A stretch of DNA of 64,000 nt from Spartobacteria bacterium (GTDB lineage Bacteria > Verrucomicrobiota > Verrucomicrobiia > Chthoniobacterales > UBA10450), in assembly GCA_003169975.1 (NCBI GenBank), contig PNAA01000022.1, forward strand, positions 62,001 to 126,000, in the 5' to 3' direction. The translations under genes and the position numbers were made by a program. The notes beneath the pieces were generated by a model, which had not been told where the DNA came from, searched no databases, and saw nothing but the letters and a program-made list of their open reading frames with translations. Shown in pieces: positions 5,616 to 26,327 of the stretch. The stretch's first letter is position 1, and every line of letters begins with the position of its first letter.

Positions 5616-8513
5616 GTGAACAAATTGCCGGCTTCTGAGATGCTCCGCTGTGAGCGGTGTGGAGCACCTTTCCCGAGCAGGGTGGGGGACAACGGTTGCC
5701 TGCACTGTCTACTCCGCGGTGGAATGGCTGTAGAGGGTGGGGAGGCCGCTATTTCGCCTGCTGATTTAGGGACGCGATTTGAGCATTACGAAATCCTGGC
5801 CCGGGCCGACGGGTCGCTTTGGGAGCTGGGTCGCGGCGCGATGGGCGTCACCTACAAGGCAATGGATGTGAACCTCCGGGTCCCGGTCGCTCTCAAAGTC
5901 ATCAATGGTCGCTTCTCTGGCCAACCGGGCGCGCGCCTGCGTTTCCTGCGTGAGGCGCAGTCATCCGCGCAGCTGTGGCACCCGAATGTGGCGAGCGTTT
6001 TTCATTTCGGCACGGTTAATTTCCTCCCGGAGCCGAACGGAACTACGACCACTGCCGGGGAGCACATTGACGCCGGCGATTGCTTCTACGCGATGGAATT
6101 CATCGAAGGGGAAACGCTCGAAAAGCGTTTGCGCCGCACCGGCCCGCTCACACCGCTCCTCGCGCTCGAACTGGCGGTGCAGGTGACCCGCGCCCTGGCC
6201 GCCGCAGAAAGGCGCGGATTGGTCCATCGCGATCTCAAGCCCTCCAACATCATGCTCCAGGCCGAGGAGGAAGGCGCGCTGGGCAACGGTCGGCGTCGGG
6301 CTTCCGCTGAAGCCTGGGTGAAGGTCATCGATTTTGGCCTCGCCAAAGCTGCCACCGAGGCGGACGAGCCGCCCGCGTCGGCCCATTTTCTGGGCACCCT
6401 GCAGTTTGCCAGCCCGGAGCAAATACGGGGCGATGAGGTGGACGGCCGCTCCGATATTTATTCGTTAGGCAGCACCCTTTGGTATTCGCTCACGGGCAAG
6501 GTGCCGTTTCCGAATCGTTCTGCGAGCGAGCTGCGCCGTGGGGCGGCGAGCCCGCCGCCGCCAGTGGTGCAATTGGTCGAGCGGAATATTCCCCGGGCAT
6601 TGATTGCGTTGCTCGAATCGATGCTGGCAAACAATCCCGATGATCGCCCCGCATCGGCCGTCGCGCTGAACGAAGCGCTCCAGAATTGCCTTGAGAATCT
6701 CGAAGGCGTTGATTCTCCGCCGCGCTCGCCCTTCCGCCACCGCAGCCGCAAGCGCGTCCTGGTGGGCGCTTTCGGATTGGCCGCGATCCTGGCCGGTCTG
6801 GCAGTTTACTTTTTTTGGTTCACCCCAGCAGAAAACGACAAGTCGATCGCCGTTCTGCCGTTTGAGAACTTGAGCAACGATCCGGCCAACGCTTTTTTCG
6901 CGGAGGGTATTCAGGACGATCTGCTCTCTCGTCTGGTCAAGATTCGCGATTTAAGAGTGATCAGTCGCAACAGTGCTGCGCGTTATCCAGCCAGCGCCCG
7001 GCGAGATCTGCGAGACATTGGCCGGACACTGGGCGTGCGGCATGTCCTGGAAGGCAGCCTGCGGCGCACGGGCGACCGCGTGTTTCTCCATGTTGCGTTA
7101 ATCGACACCCGCGACGGACATGAACTTTGGGGCGAACGTTACGATCGCTCGCTGGCTGATGCGACCAATCTGCAAGGGGAGTTGGCCGGCTCGATTGCGG
7201 ACGCCCTCGACGCCACGCTCAGCCCGCAAGAACGAATTGACGTGCAGTCGAGGCCCACCCGCAATGCAGACGCCTATGTTCTCTACCTCCGGGGACGAAA
7301 GCTCGAGAACGGTCCCGCCGTCGCGATCGCGAATTTCGACGCCGCGCAGGCGCTTTACAGTCAGGCCATCGCCCTTGATCCTGGCTTTGCCCTGGCCCAC
7401 GCGCGCCTCGCTTCCGCCCTGAGCATGCTCTATCGGAATCGAGGCCCGAGCGAAGACTTGAAACGGCGCGCGCATGCCGAGGCGCGGGCCGCGCTTCGGC
7501 TTCAGCCCGACCTGGGCGAGGCGCACCTCGCAAACGCTCTTTGCGCCTATCGGATCGAGCGCGATTACGACCGGGCCTTGCCCGAACTCAAGGTCGCGCG
7601 CCGGCTTATGCCTAACGATACCGAGCCCGAAAGTTTCGTGGCTTTCATCCATCGCCGGCAGGGCCGTTGGCGGGAAGCCCGGGCTGGGCTGGAGCGAGTC
7701 TGCGCCCTCGATCCACGCAACATGACCTACGAAGAGGAGCTTTATGCCACCTGCTCTCTCACGCGCGACTGGGCGGGCGCGGCGGTTCACGCGGCTCGTG
7801 CCGAGGCTCTCGCGCCCACGCTTCCTTCGCTCAAAGTGGAGCGAGCCATGGTCGAGCTCTGGAAACACGGGAACCTGGCGCCGGTGCAGGATGCCTTGAA
7901 GAATATCGCTGCCGCCAGCGACCCGGAGGGCAATGTGGCCTGGGCGCTTTGGGATGGGGCCATGCTCTCGCGTGATTTCGTGGCGGCTCAAACGGCCATT
8001 GACGGTTTTCCGTTTGAGACTTTGCCATCGGTTTTTGGCGCGCCTTTGCCCAAGAGTTATCTTGAGGGCTGCATTCAGCTGGCCCAAGGCAACAACTCCC
8101 GCGCCGAGGAACTCTTTGAGGACGCGCGGCCGTCGATGGAGGCCGAGGTGTTTGCGCACCCGGATGACGGGCTGCGTCATGCCAGGCTCGGTCTGCTCTA
8201 CGCCTACATGGGCCGAAAAGCTGACGCTCGCCGGGAGGGCGAACGAGCCGTCCAGCTCCAACCGCCCGCCCGCGACGCCTACGACGGCACGGAACGGGTT
8301 TGCAACCTGGCCTTGATTTATGCTCGCGTCGGCGACGCCGATCAGGCGATCGCCATGATTGAATCTCTTCTTCGGAAGCCGGGCGCGGTCACCTTTTACG
8401 AAGCGAGCATGTCGCTCTCAGAACTCCGTTTGCGCTGGCAGTGGGATCCGTTGCGGGCCGATCCGCGTTTTCAGAAGATCCTCAAAAACCCGGAGCCGCA
8501 AACCGTCTACTAG
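5616..8513 (+). CDS. Transmembrane Ser/Thr protein kinase with TolB-like and TPR domains
   Basis: 965 residues from a GTG, with an ATG alternative at 5640. Order of parts: a zinc ribbon (Cys12, Cys15, Cys28, Cys31); a Hanks-type kinase from about residue 58 to 345 with a glycine loop (LGRGAMGVTY), VALKV lysine, HRDLKPSN catalytic loop, DFG and SPEQ; one transmembrane helix near residues 380-400; an extracytoplasmic TolB/FlgO-like part (SIAVLPFENLSNDPANAFF) to about 540; then TPR-like helices to the end. All catalytic motifs look intact, so an active kinase is expected. It is probably co-expressed with the adjacent sigma factor and may phosphorylate it. A CGTTAGGC copy encodes the conserved SLG of DIYSLGSTLW. 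Confidence 0.9.
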   Translation: MNKLPASEMLRCERCGAPFPSRVGDNGCLHCLLRGGMAVEGGEAAISPADLGTRFEHYEILARADGSLWELGRGAMGVTYKAMDVNLRVPVALKVINGRFSGQPGARLRFLREAQSSAQLWHPNVASVFHFGTVNFLPEPNGTTTTAGEHIDAGDCFYAMEFIEGETLEKRLRRTGPLTPLLALELAVQVTRALAAAERRGLVHRDLKPSNIMLQAEEEGALGNGRRRASAEAWVKVIDFGLAKAATEADEPPASAHFLGTLQFASPEQIRGDEVDGRSDIYSLGSTLWYSLTGKVPFPNRSASELRRGAASPPPPVVQLVERNIPRALIALLESMLANNPDDRPASAVALNEALQNCLENLEGVDSPPRSPFRHRSRKRVLVGAFGLAAILAGLAVYFFWFTPAENDKSIAVLPFENLSNDPANAFFAEGIQDDLLSRLVKIRDLRVISRNSAARYPASARRDLRDIGRTLGVRHVLEGSLRRTGDRVFLHVALIDTRDGHELWGERYDRSLADATNLQGELAGSIADALDATLSPQERIDVQSRPTRNADAYVLYLRGRKLENGPAVAIANFDAAQALYSQAIALDPGFALAHARLASALSMLYRNRGPSEDLKRRAHAEARAALRLQPDLGEAHLANALCAYRIERDYDRALPELKVARRLMPNDTEPESFVAFIHRRQGRWREARAGLERVCALDPRNMTYEEELYATCSLTRDWAGAAVHAARAEALAPTLPSLKVERAMVELWKHGNLAPVQDALKNIAAASDPEGNVAWALWDGAMLSRDFVAAQTAIDGFPFETLPSVFGAPLPKSYLEGCIQLAQGNNSRAEELFEDARPSMEAEVFAHPDDGLRHARLGLLYAYMGRKADARREGERAVQLQPPARDAYDGTERVCNLALIYARVGDADQAIAMIESLLRKPGAVTFYEASMSLSELRLRWQWDPLRADPRFQKILKNPEPQTVY

Positions 8514-8761: not shown

Positions 8762-10612
8762 TTAGGCGGGGACGTCGACCATCCCTGCGCCCGACGGCCT
8801 CGGCGCCGTTTCGAGCTGGCTGCGCCAGACCTGCGGCGGCAACACGCCGATCATCATGAAGACGACCTGGCTGGCGCCGAACCCGATCAGCCAGGGAAAA
8901 GCGCTGTCCATGAACCCGTAGGAATGCAGCCCGATGCCGAGCATGTTCACCCCAAACCACGACCAGCTCGTGACCACGTTGCCGAAGACGGCCATCACCA
9001 TCAGGCCGCGCTGCCTAACGAGCCCGCCCCAACGGGCGTGCAGGATGATGGCGTTCCAGAGGACGATGAGGAGCGCGCCGTTTTCCTTCGGGTCCCAGCC
9101 CCAGAAGCGGCCCCACGATTGATCCGCCCAGATTCCGCCGAGGATGGTGCCGACAAAACTGAAGAGCGTCGCGAAACAAACGATGCCGTAAACCATCCGG
9201 GCGAGGGAGCGCGCCGTGTCGCGATCGAGCGAGGGCGTGAACGCGCCCCGCACGATGTAGGTGAGGGCGAGGAACCCGGCGAGGAAGGTCGAGGCGTAGC
9301 CGAGCGTCACGCAGACGACGTGGGTCGCGAGCCAGCCATTGGTGTCGAGTACCGCGCGCATCATTTCCATCGTGTCGCCGTCCATCGAGAGATGATGCGC
9401 GATGAGGAGGGTGATGAAACCGATCATCGCCGCGGTCGCGCTGCCGATGCCGTTACGGAAAAAGCGCTCGAGAAAGATTCCCAGCAAGACCGCGCCCCAG
9501 CCGATGAAGACGGCGGACGAATAAAGATTCGTGACCGGTGGCCGGCCCTCGAGATACATCCGCGTGATCAGCCCGCCGGAATGGACGACGAAGGTCACCA
9601 CGAGCAGCGCAAAGGCGTAACGCCCGAGCGTCTCCGGCCAGACGAGCCAGGAGGCGGCGGCGAGAATGAAAATCAGCACGTAAATCACCATCGCGCTGTA
9701 AAACGGCTGCAACTGGTTGAAGACCGATTCCACATTGGCCTTCCGGACGCGCGCCGGGAAATGCTGCTGCAGCCACCCCAGGTAGCCATCGAGCGCCCGG
9801 TTGAATGTTGCCGGGTCGTTGGCCGCGAAAGCGCTCGCCAGCGTCGCATACGCTAATACCGCGGGATGCATGTTGCCGGCGGTGATGAACTGCAAAATGC
9901 TCTCCCCCATCTTGCGCCAGCGCAGCGGATCATCGTTAGGCGGGACCGGCGGAATGGGGAAAAAATAGCCGGTCTCAGCGAGGAAACCGATGCTCTGCAG
10001 CGCTTCCGTCGAGATGCCGCTGTTCATCGGGATCGGCGACGGCCGGATATTTTTCAGCAGGTCGTCGACCTGACTCTTAAAATCGACCGTCCCGGCAACC
10101 TCGAGGCTGTTCTCCAGCTGATGATAAAGCGTCAGACGCTCGTAAAGCTTGATGATGTCGCGTTGGAACGGCGAACGCAGTTGCGCGTCCACCTTTTGTG
10201 CGAGCGCGGCCTGTTGCTCGACCTCCTGCAGGTGGGTGAAGAGGTCGCGGAACGAAAAATATTTGCCCGCCTCGGTGTTCCAACCCAGCGCAGCGAGCGT
10301 TTCCGGATTGCGAATGACGAAAATCCTGCGCTGATCTGCGGTGTCCGACTTCATCAAGATCTCGGCGAGCCAATCGGTCGCCGTCAGCGTGTCGTGCTCG
10401 ATGCTGAGCGTCTGCTGGCCGTGAATAATGAGGAGCGAATTGCGCGCGACCGTGTCGAGCGGCTTGATCCGGCCATTCAGGAGCACGGGCAGCCGGCCAA
10501 ACTTCTGCATCTCGAAACCGCCCCGGGTGTCGTGCGAGAAAAGCGGCGCGACGACGTAGGCGAGCGTCGCGGCGACGATCAACCAAATGACGTAAGAGCG
10601 CGCGTTTTTCAT
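8762..10612 (-). CDS. ccsA: Cytochrome c biogenesis protein CcsA/ResC type
   Basis: 616 residues from the ATG at 10610-10612 (MKNARSYVIWLIV), chosen because it overlaps the ResB stop codon as ATGA. The open frame extends upstream but inside resB. The protein has an N-terminal membrane anchor, a large extracytoplasmic region (about residues 30-310) and about eight C-terminal transmembrane helices. The heme-handling WWD signature reads WGRFWGWDPKENGALL, with conserved His residues before and after (GLITRMYLEGRPPVTNLY region). With ResB it forms the System II machine that exports heme and attaches it to apocytochrome c. Two copies of the CGTTAGGC word lie in it. Confidence 0.9.
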   Translation of the reverse strand: MKNARSYVIWLIVAATLAYVVAPLFSHDTRGGFEMQKFGRLPVLLNGRIKPLDTVARNSLLIIHGQQTLSIEHDTLTATDWLAEILMKSDTADQRRIFVIRNPETLAALGWNTEAGKYFSFRDLFTHLQEVEQQAALAQKVDAQLRSPFQRDIIKLYERLTLYHQLENSLEVAGTVDFKSQVDDLLKNIRPSPIPMNSGISTEALQSIGFLAETGYFFPIPPVPPNDDPLRWRKMGESILQFITAGNMHPAVLAYATLASAFAANDPATFNRALDGYLGWLQQHFPARVRKANVESVFNQLQPFYSAMVIYVLIFILAAASWLVWPETLGRYAFALLVVTFVVHSGGLITRMYLEGRPPVTNLYSSAVFIGWGAVLLGIFLERFFRNGIGSATAAMIGFITLLIAHHLSMDGDTMEMMRAVLDTNGWLATHVVCVTLGYASTFLAGFLALTYIVRGAFTPSLDRDTARSLARMVYGIVCFATLFSFVGTILGGIWADQSWGRFWGWDPKENGALLIVLWNAIILHARWGGLVRQRGLMVMAVFGNVVTSWSWFGVNMLGIGLHSYGFMDSAFPWLIGFGASQVVFMMIGVLPPQVWRSQLETAPRPSGAGMVDVPA

Positions 10613-11781
10613 CGGCTCCTCTTTTTCACGAAGCCAAACAGGTGCATCGAAAACTGGGTCACGAGCCCGAGCGCGACCAGCCCGCACGCGATGTAAGGCA
10701 GGAGCATGGCCGGATTCCTGACCACTTGCAGGACGGTCGTTCGGTCATTGTTGTCGAAGCCGGCCTGGTAAAAGGTAAAGCCGCGATAGCGTAGCGGATC
10801 GTTCATCGAGATGAGCACCTCGCGATTCTCGCCCCGCTCGAAATCGACCAGGCGCACGCGGCTCGAGAAGTTTTTCGGAATGTCCGTCCCGGCATAACTA
10901 TCATGCGCGAAGTGCAGCAGGGTGAGGATAAATTGCTTGTAGAAACGCCGCTGCCGCATCACCAGCTCGTAAGTGTGACCGTTGATCGCGAACGATTGCG
11001 GATCGGGAATCGCGTTCGAGACGAGCCACGTGCCTAACGAACCCTGCACTCCGGCCACCTCCACAAACGCCGCGCTCAAGTCGCGCTCGTCATCCTTCAC
11101 CGTGCGCGGGACTTCGGCGACCACGATGTTCGTCCCAAGGCCCGTCGTCGCCATCGAGGGCGGCGCCTGCGACTCTTGCGAGCGCATCGCGAGGTGCGAG
11201 TTGGGCAGGAACTGCCGGATGTTGAGCGTGAACGGCAGCGTCGGATTCTGGATCGTGCCACCGCGCGCCAGCACCCGCTCGGGGATCGCGACCACCTGAT
11301 CGAACTTCGGATCACTCGCGTCGATCACCGCCAGCTCCACTTCGCGCGGCGCCTCCGAGTAACCGAGCGTCTGGCCCTCATCGATCCGCATCTGCGTCTC
11401 GCGGGCGAAGAGGCCCGTCAGCAGTTGCCCGAGCAAAAGCAGGATGACGCCAAAGTGGAGCAGGATGATGCCAATCTTCTTTCTGGAAAACTGAAAGCGG
11501 GTTGCGTGCGCCGCGAGCAGATTCAAGAGCAGCACGGTCCCGAGCAAATAACCGCCGGGCAAAATCGGGATCTTCCAGCTCGCGCCCGGCGGCGACCAGA
11601 AGATGAGCAGGCTTTGAAAATAGCGCGCTTGCACCGCGTGAATCCCGAGGTGCACCTGCGCCAGCGTGCCGAGAAAAACGAGCAGCATCCCGAGCCCAAG
11701 ACAGACCACCGTCAGCCGGAGCGAGGCAAAAAAACGAAGCGGCGCGTGCAGGAAGTCCGAGCCGATGGCGGTCGCAGTCAT
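10609..11781 (-). CDS. resB: Cytochrome c biogenesis protein ResB
   Basis: 390 residues. Three N-terminal transmembrane helices (LRLTVVCLGLGMLLVFLGTL; GGYLLGTVLLLNLLAA; GIILLHFGVILLLLGQLLTG) are followed by a long extracytoplasmic domain and a final helix (LLPYIACGLVALGLVTQF). The C-terminal part DPLRYRGFTFYQAGF is diagnostic for ResB/Ccs1, which keeps apocytochrome c reduced and presents it to CcsA. Coupled by ATGA to ccsA and only 3 bp downstream of the lipoprotein gene that is upstream in the same orientation, so the three may form one operon. Confidence 0.9.
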   Translation of the reverse strand: MTATAIGSDFLHAPLRFFASLRLTVVCLGLGMLLVFLGTLAQVHLGIHAVQARYFQSLLIFWSPPGASWKIPILPGGYLLGTVLLLNLLAAHATRFQFSRKKIGIILLHFGVILLLLGQLLTGLFARETQMRIDEGQTLGYSEAPREVELAVIDASDPKFDQVVAIPERVLARGGTIQNPTLPFTLNIRQFLPNSHLAMRSQESQAPPSMATTGLGTNIVVAEVPRTVKDDERDLSAAFVEVAGVQGSLGTWLVSNAIPDPQSFAINGHTYELVMRQRRFYKQFILTLLHFAHDSYAGTDIPKNFSSRVRLVDFERGENREVLISMNDPLRYRGFTFYQAGFDNNDRTTVLQVVRNPAMLLPYIACGLVALGLVTQFSMHLFGFVKKRSR

Positions 11782-19048: not shown

Positions 19049-21088
19049 TTGAACGAGAAAACTTCGTGGCGCGCCGATCTTCTCGGGGCCGGCGCGGCGG
19101 GCACGCTCGTGCTCGCCTTCTGCGGTCTGCTTCTCTGGCACAATCCGCTTCTTTTTTGGAACGACGACTACGAGATTTCCATCCTGCCCGTTTTCGCCGA
19201 TGTCGCGCGGAGCTGGTCGCAAGGGCAGATCCCTTTGCTTAGCCCGTATTCGTGGGTCTGCGGCAACCTCGCGGGCGAATTTCAGTACGGGACCTTCTCT
19301 CTCTTCGTGAATGCGGCGGTCGTTCTGATCTGGAAATTTCCGCTCGCCTTTGCGCAACAGGCCGCGGCGCTTTCGCTCGCGCATTTATTCGTCCTCGCGG
19401 CCGGCGCCTTCCTCCTCGCGCGGGGCCGGAATCTCTCCTCGCCGCTCGCGACGATGGTGGCGTTGGTCGCGGCGCTCAACGGCTGGATCATTTGCTGGGG
19501 GGCGACGGATTGGTTCGGCGCGCTGGGCGCGTTCGCCTGGCTGCCCTGGGCCTGGTGGGGAATGGAGCGGGCGCTCGATAAGTCCCGGACGAAGTTCCGA
19601 TTTCTCTGGCCCGCGCCGTTTGTTTACCTGCTCGTCACCGGCGGATTTCCCTACACCGTCTTGATGCTCGCGCTGCTCGCGCTTTGGCTGGCGGTCAAGT
19701 CGTTAGGCGAGGCGCGCCCGCTTGCGTCGCTCTGGCCGCTCGCCCTCGGTCTTGGCCTTGGCGGCGGGCTTTCCGCGCCGGCCTGGCTCGCGCTCTTCGA
19801 TTACGTGCACGGCTCGGCCCGCGCCGCGCAGGAGAATCCCGGCGCGCACTGGCAATGGCTCGTGCCCCCGGCGGCCCTCCCGGGTTTGATCTGGCCGCCG
19901 TGGACGGTCCCGTGGACCGACTTTTGGACCCGTCCGGTCCCGCATGCCGCGATCGAGCTGGCCTGCGGCACGGTCCCGCCCCTCGCGCTCGGCGCCGCCC
20001 TCGTTTTTTTGCGCGGCCGATTCGTTAGGCGAATGAAATGGGAGCTGGGATTGCTCGTCCTCGTCCTGCTCATAGCGGTGCTCCCGAGCGCGAACGTTTT
20101 TCGCTGGAGCTTTCGCTGGCTGCCATTGTTCCACCTGGTGCTGGGGTTGCTGGCGGCCGAAGCGCTCGCCCAATTTCGCCTCACGAACGGCTGGCGCTGG
20201 CTGCTCGTGTTCGTCGTCTTTGGGTCGCTCCTCGCGACCTATCTCGTTCTTCCGACCCACCCCGCGGTTCCGCGGTATCACTTTGCCTCCAGCCTGACGA
20301 ATCCGCAGCCCCTCGACCCGGCCCGGCTTTACCTGAGCGCTTATCCGCCGCCGGAGACGGCCTACCGAATCGAAAATCATCCGCGGCCAGTCGGTCAGGT
20401 GACGCGGCCCGGCAGCACTTCCGTGTGGGCCGGTCTGCATTTCGTGAACGGCTACAGCCCGATCGGCGGCGCGGGGGTGGGCCGCGCCTTTGCCTTCTCC
20501 ACGCATGGGGAGATCGATCCGGGGACGGCGGATTACCTACTTGGCTACGAGGCCGGGCGCGACGGGCTGCTCGCGCTCCTCGGAGTCGACGGAATCGTCG
20601 TGGCCCGCGAAAGTGCCGCTGCGCCCCAGCCGGCCACCGAATGGACGCTCGCGCACGAGGAAGAGGAAGGTCGCATTTATCATCGCGTCGGCGGGCCGCT
20701 GCCGCGGGTCCGTTCGGTCGCTTCGCTGCCTTCCTCGCCTAACGAGAAGTTGGCGCGCGCGACGATCGGGCTGCGCGCTGATTCGCGCCAGGAAATCATC
20801 GCCGAGGTGGAGGTGCCGGCCGGCGAAGATCCGGCGCTGATTGTTTTCTCGCGGCCGTATTTTGACGGCTACCGCGCGACCGTAAACGGGAGAAAGATCG
20901 CGGTCGATTCCTATCGCGGACTGGTTCCGGTAATCAAACTCCCGCCCGGGACGCAGGGACGGCTGGTGGTGATTTATCGGCCATGGTGGCTGCTCGTGGG
21001 CGGAGCGATCGCCGCCGCCAGCTTGCTCGTCTTCCTGAGCGCGCTCGGGATGGCCGCGTTTTTTGGGGCGGTCCGCCCCGCTCAATAA
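19049..21088 (+). CDS. YfhO-like multi-span membrane protein
   Basis: 679 residues from a TTG. About twelve hydrophobic spans run to near residue 410, followed by an extracytoplasmic C-terminal part and a last helix (WWLLVGGAIAAASLLVFLSA). Early LLFWNDDYEISILPVF and later YFDGYRATVNGRK with GLVPVIKLPPG are hallmarks of YfhO/bacterial membrane-protein GT-C-like families, thought to modify cell-wall polymers or lipids. The stop codon lies in the left copy of the 32-bp cysJ-end repeat, so the gene ends exactly where the inserted segment begins. Three CGTTAGGC copies are inside. Confidence 0.75.
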   Translation: MNEKTSWRADLLGAGAAGTLVLAFCGLLLWHNPLLFWNDDYEISILPVFADVARSWSQGQIPLLSPYSWVCGNLAGEFQYGTFSLFVNAAVVLIWKFPLAFAQQAAALSLAHLFVLAAGAFLLARGRNLSSPLATMVALVAALNGWIICWGATDWFGALGAFAWLPWAWWGMERALDKSRTKFRFLWPAPFVYLLVTGGFPYTVLMLALLALWLAVKSLGEARPLASLWPLALGLGLGGGLSAPAWLALFDYVHGSARAAQENPGAHWQWLVPPAALPGLIWPPWTVPWTDFWTRPVPHAAIELACGTVPPLALGAALVFLRGRFVRRMKWELGLLVLVLLIAVLPSANVFRWSFRWLPLFHLVLGLLAAEALAQFRLTNGWRWLLVFVVFGSLLATYLVLPTHPAVPRYHFASSLTNPQPLDPARLYLSAYPPPETAYRIENHPRPVGQVTRPGSTSVWAGLHFVNGYSPIGGAGVGRAFAFSTHGEIDPGTADYLLGYEAGRDGLLALLGVDGIVVARESAAAPQPATEWTLAHEEEEGRIYHRVGGPLPRVRSVASLPSSPNEKLARATIGLRADSRQEIIAEVEVPAGEDPALIVFSRPYFDGYRATVNGRKIAVDSYRGLVPVIKLPPGTQGRLVVIYRPWWLLVGGAIAAASLLVFLSALGMAAFFGAVRPAQ

Positions 21089-21112
21089 ACATCGCGCTTG
21101 TAGCGCTTGTCG
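21081..21112. repeat. Left copy of a 32-bp direct repeat (cysJ 3' end)
   Basis: 21081-21112 is the same as 24267-24298 except for one base (C for T at position 26 of the repeat). On the minus strand it encodes DKRYKRDVY and the stop, the last residues of CysJ, although no cysJ gene is attached here. Together the copies bracket about 3.2 kb. Confidence 0.85.
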
Positions 21113-21134
21113 CACGTGAGGGCGCGTGCGCTCC

Positions 21135-21323
21135 CCAGAGCATTTCTTGGCGCCGCCAGACCGCTCGGCTGCACCGCCGGACCATCTTTCCACACAGCCA
21201 GTACCCTCGGCGGTGCAGCCATATGACTCAGCGGCGCGCCGAATCGTCCAACGGTGCCACCAGAGCATCTGGCAATGCCCCCAGACCAGCCGGCGGTGTC
21301 CCCAGACCCCTCGGCGGTGCCCA
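21135..21323 (+). repeat. Degenerate 21-bp tandem repeat, nine units
   Basis: Nine contiguous 21-base units start at 21135, 21156, 21177, 21198, 21219, 21240, 21261, 21282 and 21303. The best preserved form is CCAGACCCCTCGGCGGTGCCC. The period is a multiple of three, and on the minus strand it reads as heptapeptides such as GTAEGSG, DTAGWSG, GIARCSG and GTVGRFG. The units have diverged strongly. Whether they are coding remains unknown. Confidence 0.75.
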
Positions 21324-21329
21324 AAGAAC

Positions 21330-21959
21330 CAGCGTCGGCAACTACTCCGCCACCCTTGGCCTGACCAAGGACCAGGTGAACGGGCAGGCCGCCGCCGCCG
21401 ATTATTTCCATTACGTCCTGGCCTGCCAGGCGGCGATGCGCAACGGCGCCCAGCAATGGAGCAGTTGGAAAACGGCCGAGCGCAATGGCGGCACGCAGCC
21501 TCCGGCCGGCGAGCCGATGCCGCCCACTTTTCCTCCGGCCGTGCCGGCCGTCCCGCTCGGGATTGAGCCCCGTTTCCGCGCCCTGGTTAAGCTGATCAAG
21601 GCCAACGCCAATTACAACGAAGCGATGGGCGAAGCCCTCGGCATCGAAGGCGCCCAGCAGGCCGGTCCCGACCTCACCGCCATCCAGCCCAACATCGAGG
21701 CCCGGATCAGCGGCACCACCGTGCGCGTCGATTGGGGCTGGCAGGGCCAGAGCGCATTCCTCGACATGATCGAACTCCAGGTCGATCGCGCTGGCGGCCA
21801 AAACTTCGCCTTCCTCGCCAACGACACCACTCCGGCTACGTCGACACCGCGCCCTTCCCCGCCACTCCGGCGAAATGGACCTACCGCGCCATCTATCGCG
21901 TCGGCGACCAGCAAGTGGGTCAATGGAGCAAGCCGGTCAGCGTCATGATCGGCGGCTAA
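21330..21959 (+). pseudogene. Broken hypothetical protein gene (fibronectin-like C-terminus)
   Basis: The frame from about 21330 reads SVGNYSATLGLTKDQVNG, then a helical part (YNEAMGEALGIEGAQQ) and beta strands (NIEARISGTTVRVDWGWQG). After NFAFLANDTTP (about 21835) the sense switches by one base into the next frame: GYVDTAPFPATPAKWTYRAI, then YRVGDQQVGQWSKPVSV and a stop at 21959. One lost base near 21835 explains this. No credible start codon exists upstream because the frame enters the 21-bp repeat. The end resembles fibronectin type III-like domains of hypothetical proteins in this phylum. It lies in the inserted segment. Confidence 0.7.
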
Positions 21960-22011
21960 AGAGAAATGTTTTTACAGAAACCAATAGATGATCTGGTATC
22001 GCAAGGCACTC

Positions 22012-22248
22012 TAGAGCGTGTCATGCATTTTGAAACAGAGCGTTAAGTAGTGCGTGTCCTGCACTTCACGAGCTGGGCCACGGGCGAGGCTGTAGCCGCT
22101 TCGCTGCGCGAAGCGTTCGCCGGCGTGCAACACTCTCGAGCTTTTTGGAGCGCGCTCTCCGCGTCGCCCACAGGGCGACGGCTACAGGACGCTACAGGAC
22201 GCGGATTTTGCTGGCCACGCAGGCTCCGCAAGTTCATGACACGCTCTA
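22012..22248. mobile_element. MITE-like element, 237 bp
   Basis: Perfect 14-base terminal inverted repeats (TAGAGCGTGTCATG at 22012-22025 and its complement at 22235-22248) enclose a non-coding segment that has internal palindromic parts (TGTAGCCG/CGGCTACA). Both ends carry TA, which fits a target duplication of the IS630/Tc1-mariner type, though the family is a guess. No transposase is present. Confidence 0.6.
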
Positions 22249-22310
22249 AGACGGCCTCAAGAATTCGCGCTTCGCAGCAAGATGGAAGGCCCGGACTTCG
22301 ATGGCCGAAC

Positions 22311-22342
22311 CGAGTCGCCAAAGCCTGGGCCTTGGCGACTCG
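22311..22342. terminator. Hairpin with 11-bp stem
   Basis: CGAGTCGCCAA at 22311-22321 pairs with its complement at 22332-22342 around a 10-base loop. It lies 50 bases from the end of the leftward hydrolase fragment. It could be that gene's old terminator. Confidence 0.4.
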
Positions 22343-22393
22343 AGATTTATTAGGCTAGCTCGGCTAGCAGCTGCGAAGAGCAACCACTCAAGG

Positions 22394-22790
22394 TTATTTC
22401 AGGTATAGGTCGAGGAAATCAGTCACTCGTCTTTTAACTTTGATGGACGGGTTGCACGTCCCACCTAGGTCGCAGATCGGGCTGTTCCAAAATGCAAACC
22501 CATGCTCGTGACTGTCGGGAATGGTCCAGGCCTTCCAGAGGCCGTGATCAGCACCCGCTGACTCCAACGCACATTCCATATCCACAATCTGGTGTACCGG
22601 CATCGGGTCATGGTCAGTGTTGATAAGATACATTGGCACAATACTCGAGGTCACTTTGGAGACTGGTGATACGCTGGTTTGTTCTGTCGTCACGCAGGTG
22701 TTGGTATAATTCTCGATGTCGTCCTTGAACTGATCGAGGGTTTCGTATCCTGGGTCGATGCGCGTGCACTTTTTTGCACATTGACTTGCG
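22394..22790 (-). pseudogene. Alpha/beta hydrolase C-terminal fragment
   Basis: The minus frame that ends at 22394 reads VPMYLINTDHDPMPVHQI, then ALESAGADHGLWKAWTIP and DSHEHGFAFWN, ending VTDFLDLYLK. This is the end of an alpha/beta hydrolase: the acidic residue after a strand (NTDHDPMP) and the catalytic His (HEHGFAFW). About 130 residues are recognisable and the N-terminal half, including the nucleophile elbow, is missing. The frame upstream of about 22790 belongs to the promoter region of the divergent S74 gene. It is therefore a truncated remnant. Confidence 0.65.
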
Positions 22791-22831
22791 CGCCCGAAAA
22801 CCGGTAGAATGTAAGAAAACGAAAGGGAAAA

Positions 22832-24079
22832 ATGAACGCTCCTCGCCTCTTTACATCGTCTAAGTTTGTTCTCTGTTTTCTGGCCGGCATTTGTTGCTAT
22901 TTGACGAGCGGCTCCTCCGCGCTTGCGGTCGATCCGCCGCCGGGCGGAGGTTATCCGAATCAAGTCACTGCACTTGGCCAGGATGCGCTCTTCAATTTGG
23001 TCCCGGGCAGTCTCGGAATGAATACGGCGATTGGATTCGATGCGCTTTACGGTAACACGACCGGTTACGAAAACACTGCCGTGGGTGACAGCGCGCTTCT
23101 CAGCAACACGACCGGATTTGCCAACGTCGCCAGCGGTGACTACGCGCTATATAGCAACACAACCGGGACGCGAAATACCGCGATTGGCAGCGGCGTTATG
23201 GTTAACAACACGGTGGGCTACAGTAACACCGCAACCGGGGAGGAGGCCCTCGAAGACAATACGACCGGGTTTAACAACACGGCTAATGGAGCGGTCGCGC
23301 TCACGTTCAACACAACGGGCACACGCAATACCGCGGTCGGGGCTGGAGCGCTGGCGTTCAACAACGGGGATGACAACACCGGGCTCGGGATTGCGGCGCT
23401 CAACTTTAATACCACTGGGGGCGCAAATACGGCCATCGGCGACTCGGCGCTCTCTGCCAATACCAGCGGGAGCAATAACATCGCCATCGGCCAGTTGGCG
23501 GGAGGCGCCCTCACCACCGGCGGCAACAACATCGATATCGGCAACGCCGGGGTGGCTGGCGAGTCGGGCACGATCCGCATCGGGACGAGGCGAACCCAGA
23601 CCAAGACGTTCATCGCCGGAATCAGCAAGACGACGGTCGCGGGGGGAGTGGGCGTGGTGGTGAATACCAACGGTCAGCTCGGCACAGTGACCTCTTCGGC
23701 GCGCTACAAGGAAGCGATCCAGCCAATGGCGAAGGCGAGCGAAGCGCTCCTCGCGCTTCAGCCGGTGACGTTCCGCTACAAGAAGGAACTTGATCCCGAA
23801 GCGATCCCGCAATTTGGCCTCATCGCCGAGCAAGTGGCGAAGGTCGATCCCGACCTGGTGGCGCGCGATGAGGAGGGCAAGCCTTACACCGTGCGCTACG
23901 AAGCGGTGAACGCGATGTTGCTCAACGAGTTTCTCAAGGAGCATCGCAAGGTGGAAGCGCAGGGCGCTCACATTGCGCAACTCGAAGCCGCGCTGGCGAA
24001 AATGCAGGCGACGATCGAGAAGGTGAGCGACCAGCTTGAAGCGAGTGGGCCTGCGCTGCGAGCCGTCGCTAACAATTAG
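22832..24079 (+). CDS. Tail-fibre-type protein with S74 intramolecular chaperone domain
   Basis: 415 residues behind a good ribosome site (AAAGGGAAAAATG). A signal peptide (FVLCFLAGICCYLTSGSSAL) is followed by about ten short repeats of the form N-T-A-x-G-x-x-A-L-x-x-N-T-T-G (residues about 60-235), like the beta-roll heads of trimeric autotransporters. The C-terminus is a peptidase S74 domain (SSARYKEAIQPM near 289, then LQPVTFRYK and FGLIAEQVAKVDP), which trimerises and cuts itself off. A coiled coil ends the protein. A secreted or surface trimeric fibre is likely. It is the only intact gene in the inserted segment. Confidence 0.85.
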   Translation: MNAPRLFTSSKFVLCFLAGICCYLTSGSSALAVDPPPGGGYPNQVTALGQDALFNLVPGSLGMNTAIGFDALYGNTTGYENTAVGDSALLSNTTGFANVASGDYALYSNTTGTRNTAIGSGVMVNNTVGYSNTATGEEALEDNTTGFNNTANGAVALTFNTTGTRNTAVGAGALAFNNGDDNTGLGIAALNFNTTGGANTAIGDSALSANTSGSNNIAIGQLAGGALTTGGNNIDIGNAGVAGESGTIRIGTRRTQTKTFIAGISKTTVAGGVGVVVNTNGQLGTVTSSARYKEAIQPMAKASEALLALQPVTFRYKKELDPEAIPQFGLIAEQVAKVDPDLVARDEEGKPYTVRYEAVNAMLLNEFLKEHRKVEAQGAHIAQLEAALAKMQATIEKVSDQLEASGPALRAVANN

Positions 24080-24091
24080 TAAAGCTGAGTT

Positions 24092-24163
24092 GACCGCGGA
24101 TAGCGCGGATGACACGGATGGGTGTGAGAATCTTAATCCATTCAATCCGCGTAATCCGCGGTT
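24092..24163. repeat. Imperfect inverted repeat of GCGGAT units
   Basis: Left arm 24092-24119 (ACCGCGGATAGCGCGGATGA and on) pairs imperfectly with right arm 24137-24163 (AATCCGCGTAATCCGCGGT). The arms consist of repeated GCGGAT-type hexamers. It follows the S74 gene and may act as its 3' structure. It belongs with the other simple-sequence hairpins of the window. Confidence 0.7.
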
Positions 24164-24266
24164 GAAAAACTGCGCGCAGCTTCGGTGTTCGGCCTTGCCG
24201 TCAATGATCGAGGTGGCCGATTCGCTGGCGTATCTGCGGACGCGTTTCCACCGCGCCCGGCACGCC

Positions 24267-24298
24267 CTCAATAAACATCGCGCTTGTAGCGTTTGTCG
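24267..24298. repeat. Right copy of the 32-bp direct repeat (inside cysJ)
   Basis: This copy is the true 3' end of cysJ. See the left copy at 21081-21112, which differs at one synonymous position (AAG for AAA, Lys). Confidence 0.85.
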
Positions 24299-25452
24299 TT
24301 CTTGAGCTTTTCGACGTATTCGCTCGCGGCCTCGACATTCATGCCGCCCTGGCGCTGCACGATCAGGCGCAGGGCTGCGTCCACATCCTTGGCCATGTGC
24401 TTGGCATCGCCGCAGACGTAGAAGTACGCGCCTTCGTCGAGCCATTTCCAGAGTTCCTCCGACGCCTCGAGCATTCGGTCCTGCACATAAATCTTGTGCG
24501 CCTGGTCGCGCGAGAATGCCGTGTCGATCCGGGTGAGAAATCCGTCGGCGATGAAGCGCTCGAAGTCCTCCTGATAGTAGTAGTCGCTCTTCTCGCGCTG
24601 CGCGCCGAAGAAAAGCCACGTCTTGCCGCGCGCTCCGATCGCCTGGCGTTCCTGCAAAAAAGCGCGGAAGGGCGCCACGCCCGTGCCGGGACCAACCATG
24701 ATGAGCGGCGCGTCGCGGTCCTCGGGCAGGCGGAACTTCGAGACGGCCGGATAAATCGGCGCGGGCAAATCCGAGCAGCGCTCGGCGAGGAAGGTGGAGC
24801 AGACGCCTTTGCGCAAACGGCCATGGCTCGTGTAGGTCACGACATCGACAATGAAGTGGGTCGCCTCGGGGACGACCTTGAGACTCGAAGCGATGGAGTA
24901 AAGCCGCGGCTGCAACTTCGGCAGCAGCGCGACGAATTCCTGCGGCTCGAAGGTGACCCGCGGATTTGCGACCAGGAAATCGATCACCTCCATCCCCCAG
25001 AGATAAGTATCGAGCTCCTGTTTCCGCTTCGGCTCGAGCAGCTCTTTCAAGAGCGGGGCGGCGGAGGCGCGTTGCGCGATCGCTTTCAAGAATTTCGGGG
25101 TCGGCTGGGTGATGCCGTGATCGCGGAGCAACGCTTTGCGCAGCGTCGTCGTTTCGCCTCGATTGCCCGCGATCGCTTCCTCGCCCGTCGCGTCGAGCGC
25201 TTCGAGGATTTCAGCGACCAGCTCGGGATCGTTGGTCGGGTAGACTGCCATCGAGTCGCCGACTTCGTAAGTCAGCCCCGAGTCGCCGAACGAAATCTCG
25301 AAATGGCGAATGTCTTTTTCCGAGTCGGGACTGTTCAACCGGCGGTTGACGAGGAGGCGGCCCGGGAAGGGATTTTTCCGGGAATAAGTTTCGGGCGCAG
25401 CGGGTTGCTTGTTAGGCAAGACGGACGGGTTTGCGGTTTCAGGCACGGCCAA
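24268..25452 (-). CDS. cysJ: Sulfite reductase flavoprotein subunit, FAD/NADPH part
   Basis: 394 residues of the ferredoxin-NADP reductase-like part of CysJ. Visible motifs are the FAD site PRLYSIASS, GVCSTFLAER, the NADPH site MVGPGTGVAPFRAF, and YFYVCGDAKHMAKDVD with the family ending YKRDVY. E. coli CysJ has an N-terminal FMN flavodoxin domain and about 600 residues; this protein lacks it, so a separate flavodoxin or ferredoxin must bring in electrons. It reduces sulfite together with a CysI hemoprotein not in this window. It is leftward and divergent from coaX. No CGTTAGGC word is in the gene. Confidence 0.88.
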   Translation of the reverse strand: MAVPETANPSVLPNKQPAAPETYSRKNPFPGRLLVNRRLNSPDSEKDIRHFEISFGDSGLTYEVGDSMAVYPTNDPELVAEILEALDATGEEAIAGNRGETTTLRKALLRDHGITQPTPKFLKAIAQRASAAPLLKELLEPKRKQELDTYLWGMEVIDFLVANPRVTFEPQEFVALLPKLQPRLYSIASSLKVVPEATHFIVDVVTYTSHGRLRKGVCSTFLAERCSDLPAPIYPAVSKFRLPEDRDAPLIMVGPGTGVAPFRAFLQERQAIGARGKTWLFFGAQREKSDYYYQEDFERFIADGFLTRIDTAFSRDQAHKIYVQDRMLEASEELWKWLDEGAYFYVCGDAKHMAKDVDAALRLIVQRQGGMNVEAASEYVEKLKNDKRYKRDVY

Positions 25453-25565
25453 CCTTCTAGCGTGGTCGCGGCGATCGGCAACGTTAAACTATTCGTGCCA
25501 CCGCTGGGGACGCGTGCGTGGCCGCGGTTGTGCGCGACGACGCGCCGGTGAAAGGTCCCTGCGCC

Positions 25566-26327
25566 ATGCCTCGCTCGTTGCCCCGTCGAAAAAGCGATTA
25601 CCTCCTGATCGACGTCAGCAATTCGTTCACCAAACTGGCCTTTGCTTCGCGGAAAAAACTGGGCGGGAAAGAGCGGATCGCGACCGATCGATTGAGCGCG
25701 GCCACGCTCGGAAAGTTGATCCGGCAACGAGTGGTCGAGCAGATTGTCGTCTCTTCCGTGGTGCCAAAGAAGAACGCGCTGATCCGTCGCGCGGCGGGAA
25801 GGATTCCAGTTTTGTTCGTGAGCGTAAAATGCGCGCTCGGGGTCGGCGTCGATTATCCCGATCCGGAGTCGATCGGCGCGGACCGGCTTGCGAACGCGGC
25901 GGCCGTGGCCGCGCTCTTCGGTTCTCCCGCCGTGGTGGTGGATTTTGGCACGGCGGTGACGTTTGATGTGGTCTCGGCGGATCGCTCCTACATCGGCGGC
26001 GTGATCGCGCCCGGCCTCGAAGCCATGACCACCTATCTGTATAAGAGGACTGCGCTGTTGCCCAAGCTCATCCTCGCCGAACCGCGGCGCGCGGTCGGCC
26101 GCTCGACGAAAGCCGCCATGCTGTCGGGCGCGATTTTCGGCTATCGTGGCTTGGTCAAAGAGATTCTGGTGAAAATCGGCGCGGAGGCCTTCGGCCAGCG
26201 CAAAGCGAAAATCGTCGCCACCGGGGGCTATGCGCAATTGATCGCGGCGCAGATGCCGGCGATCGACGCGGTCCGCCCGCACTTGACGCTGGAAGGTTTG
26301 CGCATCATTGGAAATTTGAATCGTTAG
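25566..26327 (+). CDS. coaX: Type III pantothenate kinase
   Basis: 253 residues from the ATG at 25566; a longer upstream start adds only linker. Motifs of the ASKHA-fold CoaX family are present: YLLIDVSNSFTKLAF, the PESIGADRLANA segment, VVVDFGTAVTFDVV and YIGGVIAPGLEAM, then VATGGYAQLIA. It catalyses the first step of CoA synthesis and normally needs a monovalent cation. The stop codon TAG is inside a CGTTAGGC word (26322-26329). The ROK kinase gene follows at 16 bp and is probably co-transcribed. Confidence 0.93.
   Translation: MPRSLPRRKSDYLLIDVSNSFTKLAFASRKKLGGKERIATDRLSAATLGKLIRQRVVEQIVVSSVVPKKNALIRRAAGRIPVLFVSVKCALGVGVDYPDPESIGADRLANAAAVAALFGSPAVVVDFGTAVTFDVVSADRSYIGGVIAPGLEAMTTYLYKRTALLPKLILAEPRRAVGRSTKAAMLSGAIFGYRGLVKEILVKIGAEAFGQRKAKIVATGGYAQLIAAQMPAIDAVRPHLTLEGLRIIGNLNR

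Follow-up and report, generated by a model that had tools for sequence, protein, structure and literature searches.

The window analysed in this study, a stretch of 64 kb from a soil bacterium, carries at 19049..21088 (+) a gene for a YfhO-like membrane protein and at 24267..25452 (-) an intact gene for a cysJ-type flavoprotein. The Pfam YfhO match of the former product is weak (E 0.0012, below the curated cut-off), and orthologues of the gene were found in all five members of the genus. At the facing ends of the two genes lies a direct repeat, with a left copy at 21081..21112 (-) and a right copy at 24267..24298 (-), identical at 31 of 32 positions, or at 36 of 40 (90%) when extended to 40 nt. 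The longest exact run within the 32-bp repeat is 25 nt, whereas 200 Markov-1 resamplings of this 5.5-kb stretch yielded at most 17, and the genome (4.47 Mb) holds just these two copies even when three mismatches are allowed. Both copies encode the end of CysJ on the minus strand (...DKRYKRDVY-stop); the right one is the functional cysJ end, and the left one belongs to the native left flank and contains the YfhO stop TAA at 21086-21088, with the ancestral stop overlap kept. The initial annotation had described a 32-bp direct repeat with one mismatch encoding the CysJ end, as well as an overlap of its left copy with the YfhO stop, and we observed both as described, the repeat bracketing 21,113-24,266. 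At the left junction the match continues at 5 of 8 bases (TGAG being common), and no microhomology was noticed at the right junction.

The insert of 3,154 bp between the repeat copies is a patchwork. From its left end, it comprises the terminal hairpin GCACGTGAGGGCGCGTGCGCTCCCC (21112..21136, +) of an inverted-repeat element that is dispersed in the family and is truncated here at the insert boundary; a degenerate 21-bp tandem array (21138..21340) with a period-21 self-match of 0.52; a gene (21340..21959, +) frameshifted near 21,836, whose N-terminus is unrecognisable and which has homologues in the same-genus genomes G002, G003 and G004; and a MITE (22012..22248) with inverted ends TAGAGCGTGTCATG/CATGACACGCTCTA and TA at start and finish, a 98% copy of which sits elsewhere in the window genome (G000:C33). 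These are followed by the remnant of a hydrolase-like gene (22394..22768, -) that retains the C-terminal 124 aa, an intact S74 (chaperone of endosialidase) gene of 415 aa (22832..24079, +), which is one of many paralogues, an imperfect inverted repeat downstream of it (24093..24162), and a scrap at 24180..24250 (-), truncated on both sides, which we take from its sequence to be ispH, an intact copy of which is found at G000:C44. The contents claimed previously (the frameshifted gene, the 21-bp repeat, the MITE, the hydrolase fragment and the S74 gene) are all present, while the truncated dispersed repeat at 21112-21136 and the ispH scrap had been missed. The absence of an integrase, also claimed, was confirmed among the larger open frames of the insert, and Rfam gave no matches at 20,000-25,500. 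The insert as a whole recurs nowhere in the six genomes searched, where only its separate pieces recur.

The pieces themselves were further compared. The dispersed inverted-repeat element has 22 copies in G003, 12 in G002, nine in G001, three in the window genome and none in G004. Where two copies form a pair, they lie in opposite orientations about 90-130 bp from each other; the fold of one such pair is very stable (z -9.6). The ends of the element display two successive hairpins with an inner stem that is variable yet complementary (21112-21136; L068, 525-695; many other loci), and the left boundary of the insert cuts the element right at the base of its terminal hairpin. The hydrolase-like remnant has no Pfam match, and its best-matching relatives lie mostly within open frames of ~390-440 aa; such C-termini recurrently adjoin S74 genes in other genomes, either in tandem or divergently (L123, L124, L125 and L127). 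The idea of an S74 cassette was rejected, as none of 20 loci chosen around S74 matches, inspected by eye, showed the S74 gene enclosed by a similar short repeat of a gene end; the direct repeats present there seem to belong to S74 or other repetitive genes, either inside one gene or between genes. A virus origin was likewise set aside, the S74 protein having no relative in viral contigs in a search that covered close relatives.

With regard to the source of the insert, the top-scoring DNA match of the S74 gene outside the window was detected in another genus (G005, 75% over 727 bp), and the 70-bp ispH scrap is 86% identical to the ispH of its own genome (G000:C44) and 91-92% identical to those of several other genera. 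Since the scrap is nearer to other genera and the S74 top match falls in G005, these similarities hint that the DNA was acquired. In the last ~120 nt of cysJ the own-genus advantage is gone in the window genome (74/74, against 78-81/72-78 in the others), which may point to a mosaic 3' end of the gene, but no donor stands out.

The word CGTTAGGC occurs 50 times in the window against 1.2 expected (e.g. at 2343, 6463, 9934, 20737 and 26322), and its count in the whole genome is 2349, compared with 332 for the word reversed. It is strongly over-represented in the genus (5157 in G003), is enriched also in G005 and G014, stays at about control level or lower in most other genera, and is found in both coding and non-coding DNA, a distribution like that of an uptake or recombination signal. 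The gap in the word from 20,745 to 26,321, to which the initial annotation had drawn attention, is real; nevertheless it is not significant, because 1.7-2.5 occurrences are predicted in the insert and the probability of none, calculated from the window and genome counts, is ~0.09-0.19, so that its absence was dropped as evidence of foreign DNA. A 5.6-kb gap among the 50 sites is itself expected ~0.6 times. Separately, a locus of the same-genus genome G004 (L114, on contig C48) harbors four repeats of ~125 bp (8065-8190, 9530-9653, 10333-10457 and 10930-11055), which separate short coding-looking stretches. The repeats have complementary arms and are bounded by GCCTAAC...GTTAGGC, the last two in partly degenerate form. 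The arrangement is reminiscent of an integron gene-cassette array; one repeat, when folded, is no stabler than shuffles (z -1.2), and the core shares the GTTAGGC word.

The arrangement in relatives discloses what the locus was like before. In a scan of named genomes covering 40 YfhO loci, mostly from Chthoniobacterales and other Verrucomicrobia, the distance between the YfhO and cysJ stops was -4 or -7 in 13, those of G001 and G004 included; that is, two of the four same-genus genomes and eleven further loci of the order display a single shared cysJ end at which the two stops overlap by 4 or 7 bp. The junction of G004 (...GCGCTCAATAGACGTCGCGCTTGTAGCG...) has one copy and an overlap of 7 bp, and that of G001 has a CTAG overlap of 4 bp; in G002 the two genes are 11 bp apart, and in G003 the spacer contains an inverted repeat. 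The TCAATA(A/G) overlap of the left copy was found also in G004 and in two other loci, and among the five genus members a second copy of the cysJ end was seen in the window genome only. As overlapping single-copy junctions recur in 13 loci, the comparison marks the overlap as the ancestral state; the ~3.18 kb found in the window is derived, an insertion in this lineage by which the shared end was duplicated. The earlier proposals that the two genes had once converged on one shared end, and that relatives should be searched for an empty site, are thus borne out by these loci, and none of the relatives carried the same segment in the same place. Moreover, both repeat copies contain an A (ACATCGCG) that is missing from G001-G004, suggesting that the duplication of the cysJ end is probably younger than the split.

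Several explanations of this insertion were weighed. According to one of them, the insert is the relic of an element that a tyrosine recombinase integrated at the cysJ 3' end; the element would have brought a replacement end with it and subsequently lost its integrase. The direct repeats, the position at a gene end, the restored cysJ end and the empty site in relatives are as such an element would leave them, the repeat begins 1 bp past the cysJ stop, as an att core also would, and the window genome has 17 Phage_integrase-family matches, with the listed PF00589 matches lying on other contigs. Nonetheless, the insert itself lacks an integrase, its ends are truncated scraps, no attP-like copy was found in the genome or could be recognised in 83 family genomes, and no paper was found that names cysJ together with an integration site, a genomic island and an integrase. 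High identity of the repeat is no argument for att sites by itself, because the ends of tandem cysJ paralogues are identical at 22-25 of 26 bp and the cysJ end is therefore strongly conserved by function. A scan of the 83 family genomes for a degenerate pattern of 26 bp representing the cysJ end gave no comparable second end; the extra matches were almost all tandem cysJ paralogues 1.2-1.4 kb apart, and in G059 and G100 the second match sits on another contig. The core was in no mobile context in these genomes, contrary to the expectation that the same 32 bp might stand beside integrases elsewhere. Larger YfhO-cysJ spacers exist at four loci (L160, L161 and L176, multi-kilobase; L193, 424 bp), none of which has a cysJ end beside YfhO. 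Of the integration with a replacement end that the initial annotation envisaged, the arrival of a second cysJ end with the insert survives, and the integrase element, with no integrase and with scraps for ends, is unsupported; we consider this relic unlikely.

Another possibility is that a second cysJ once lay in tandem with the first and lost its body to replacement, with the left copy as its leftover and the repeat being kept by function. Tandem cysJ pairs do occur in several genomes of the family, and in some the downstream gene overlaps YfhO; given their similar ends, repeat identity alone cannot reject this reading. Tandem cysJ-type paralogues were observed in several family genera (L160, L161, L181 and L182). 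On the other hand, each of the four genus relatives has one cysJ match, adjoining YfhO, the cysJ homology in the insert stops at 39-40 bp, and the base absent from G001-G004 is present in both copies. The leftover of a tandem gene is therefore distinctly unlikely, even though functional conservation of the repeat, which had been named beforehand as an objection to an insertion, proved to be strong. A further suggestion is that an undescribed recombinase or hairpin-recognising system of this family may integrate DNA at the cysJ 3' end, which has a small hairpin of its own (GCGCTTGTAGCGC), and that the element hairpin directly next to the left copy acts as a functional end; we regard this as very unlikely. 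An assembly artefact, in which unrelated DNA was joined at the 32-bp repeat, might be suspected since the close relatives are metagenome assemblies, and it is highly improbable, as there is no third repeat copy to mislead an assembler and native neighbours lie on both flanks in a contig of 182 kb. Casposons insert at gene 3' ends, and 32 bp exceeds the target duplications usually reported. Transposition with an unusually long, for instance casposon-like, target-site duplication would explain an exact duplication at a gene 3' end, and it can hardly be credited given that the insert boundaries lack terminal inverted repeats, the insert open frames include no recognised transposase or Cas1, and no other copy of the 3.15-kb unit was found in the six genomes searched.

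We infer instead, with a probability of roughly 0.6, a single illegitimate insertion of scrap DNA by way of either break repair or transformation. Its survival would be due to the duplication of the gene overlap. Both boundaries, a cut dispersed element and an ispH truncated on both sides, are scraps rather than the ends of an element, which argues against transposition or a defined island and for illegitimate capture. YfhO and cysJ started as an overlapping convergent pair with a 7-bp stop overlap; the junction then received 3,154 bp of scrap DNA, and 32 bp of the cysJ end was duplicated, leaving the left copy to YfhO and the right copy to cysJ. The MITE, being mobile by itself, probably arrived separately. 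The event could have taken place in two ways. A staggered double-strand break may have undergone fill-in and been ligated to captured DNA; alternatively, incoming DNA may have recombined through homology within cysJ at one end, the other end being joined illegitimately. The data are compatible with both routes, and a duplication of 32 bp is rather long to have come from stagger fill-in, which counts against the former. A clean insertion in the overlap breaks at least one gene, so survivors should mostly be events in which the overlap is duplicated; as such duplication keeps both genes whole, selection explains the outcome seen. As the four spacers that lack a duplication show, the genes can also become separated when the YfhO stop is lost or shifted.

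This case shows that an overlapping pair, with a stop overlap of 4 or 7 bp found in several genera, can be separated with neither gene lost. Only insertions that copy the overlap leave both genes intact. The present case is by itself an ordinary scar, left by a common type of genome accident; it is unusually well documented and gives no sign of a dedicated mobile element. In comparison with known systems, genomic islands placed in gene 3' ends by tyrosine recombinases are alike in their direct repeats with the gene end, the restored gene and the empty site in relatives, but the insert contains no integrase or defined element, its core was seen in no mobile setting elsewhere, and no similar occupancy of the site was seen in the family. 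Casposons (PMC4046053) share the target duplication at a gene end, and the insert differs from them in having no recognised Cas1 and no terminal inverted repeats. In Ku/LigD end joining with captured DNA, the distribution of which in bacteria is treated in PMC7719229, the 32-bp duplication would be long and clear microhomology is missing from the insert junctions; the patchwork filler, the ends in the middle of unrelated sequence and the presence of Ku (G000:C21:26383-26922; 16 of 20 genomes searched have Ku) are nevertheless alike. Recombination in bacteria that relies on homology at one end and joins the other end illegitimately has been documented, as outlined in PMC3240628, and though no donor was found here, one-sided homology of the kind outlined there would leave the same architecture as that observed between YfhO and cysJ.
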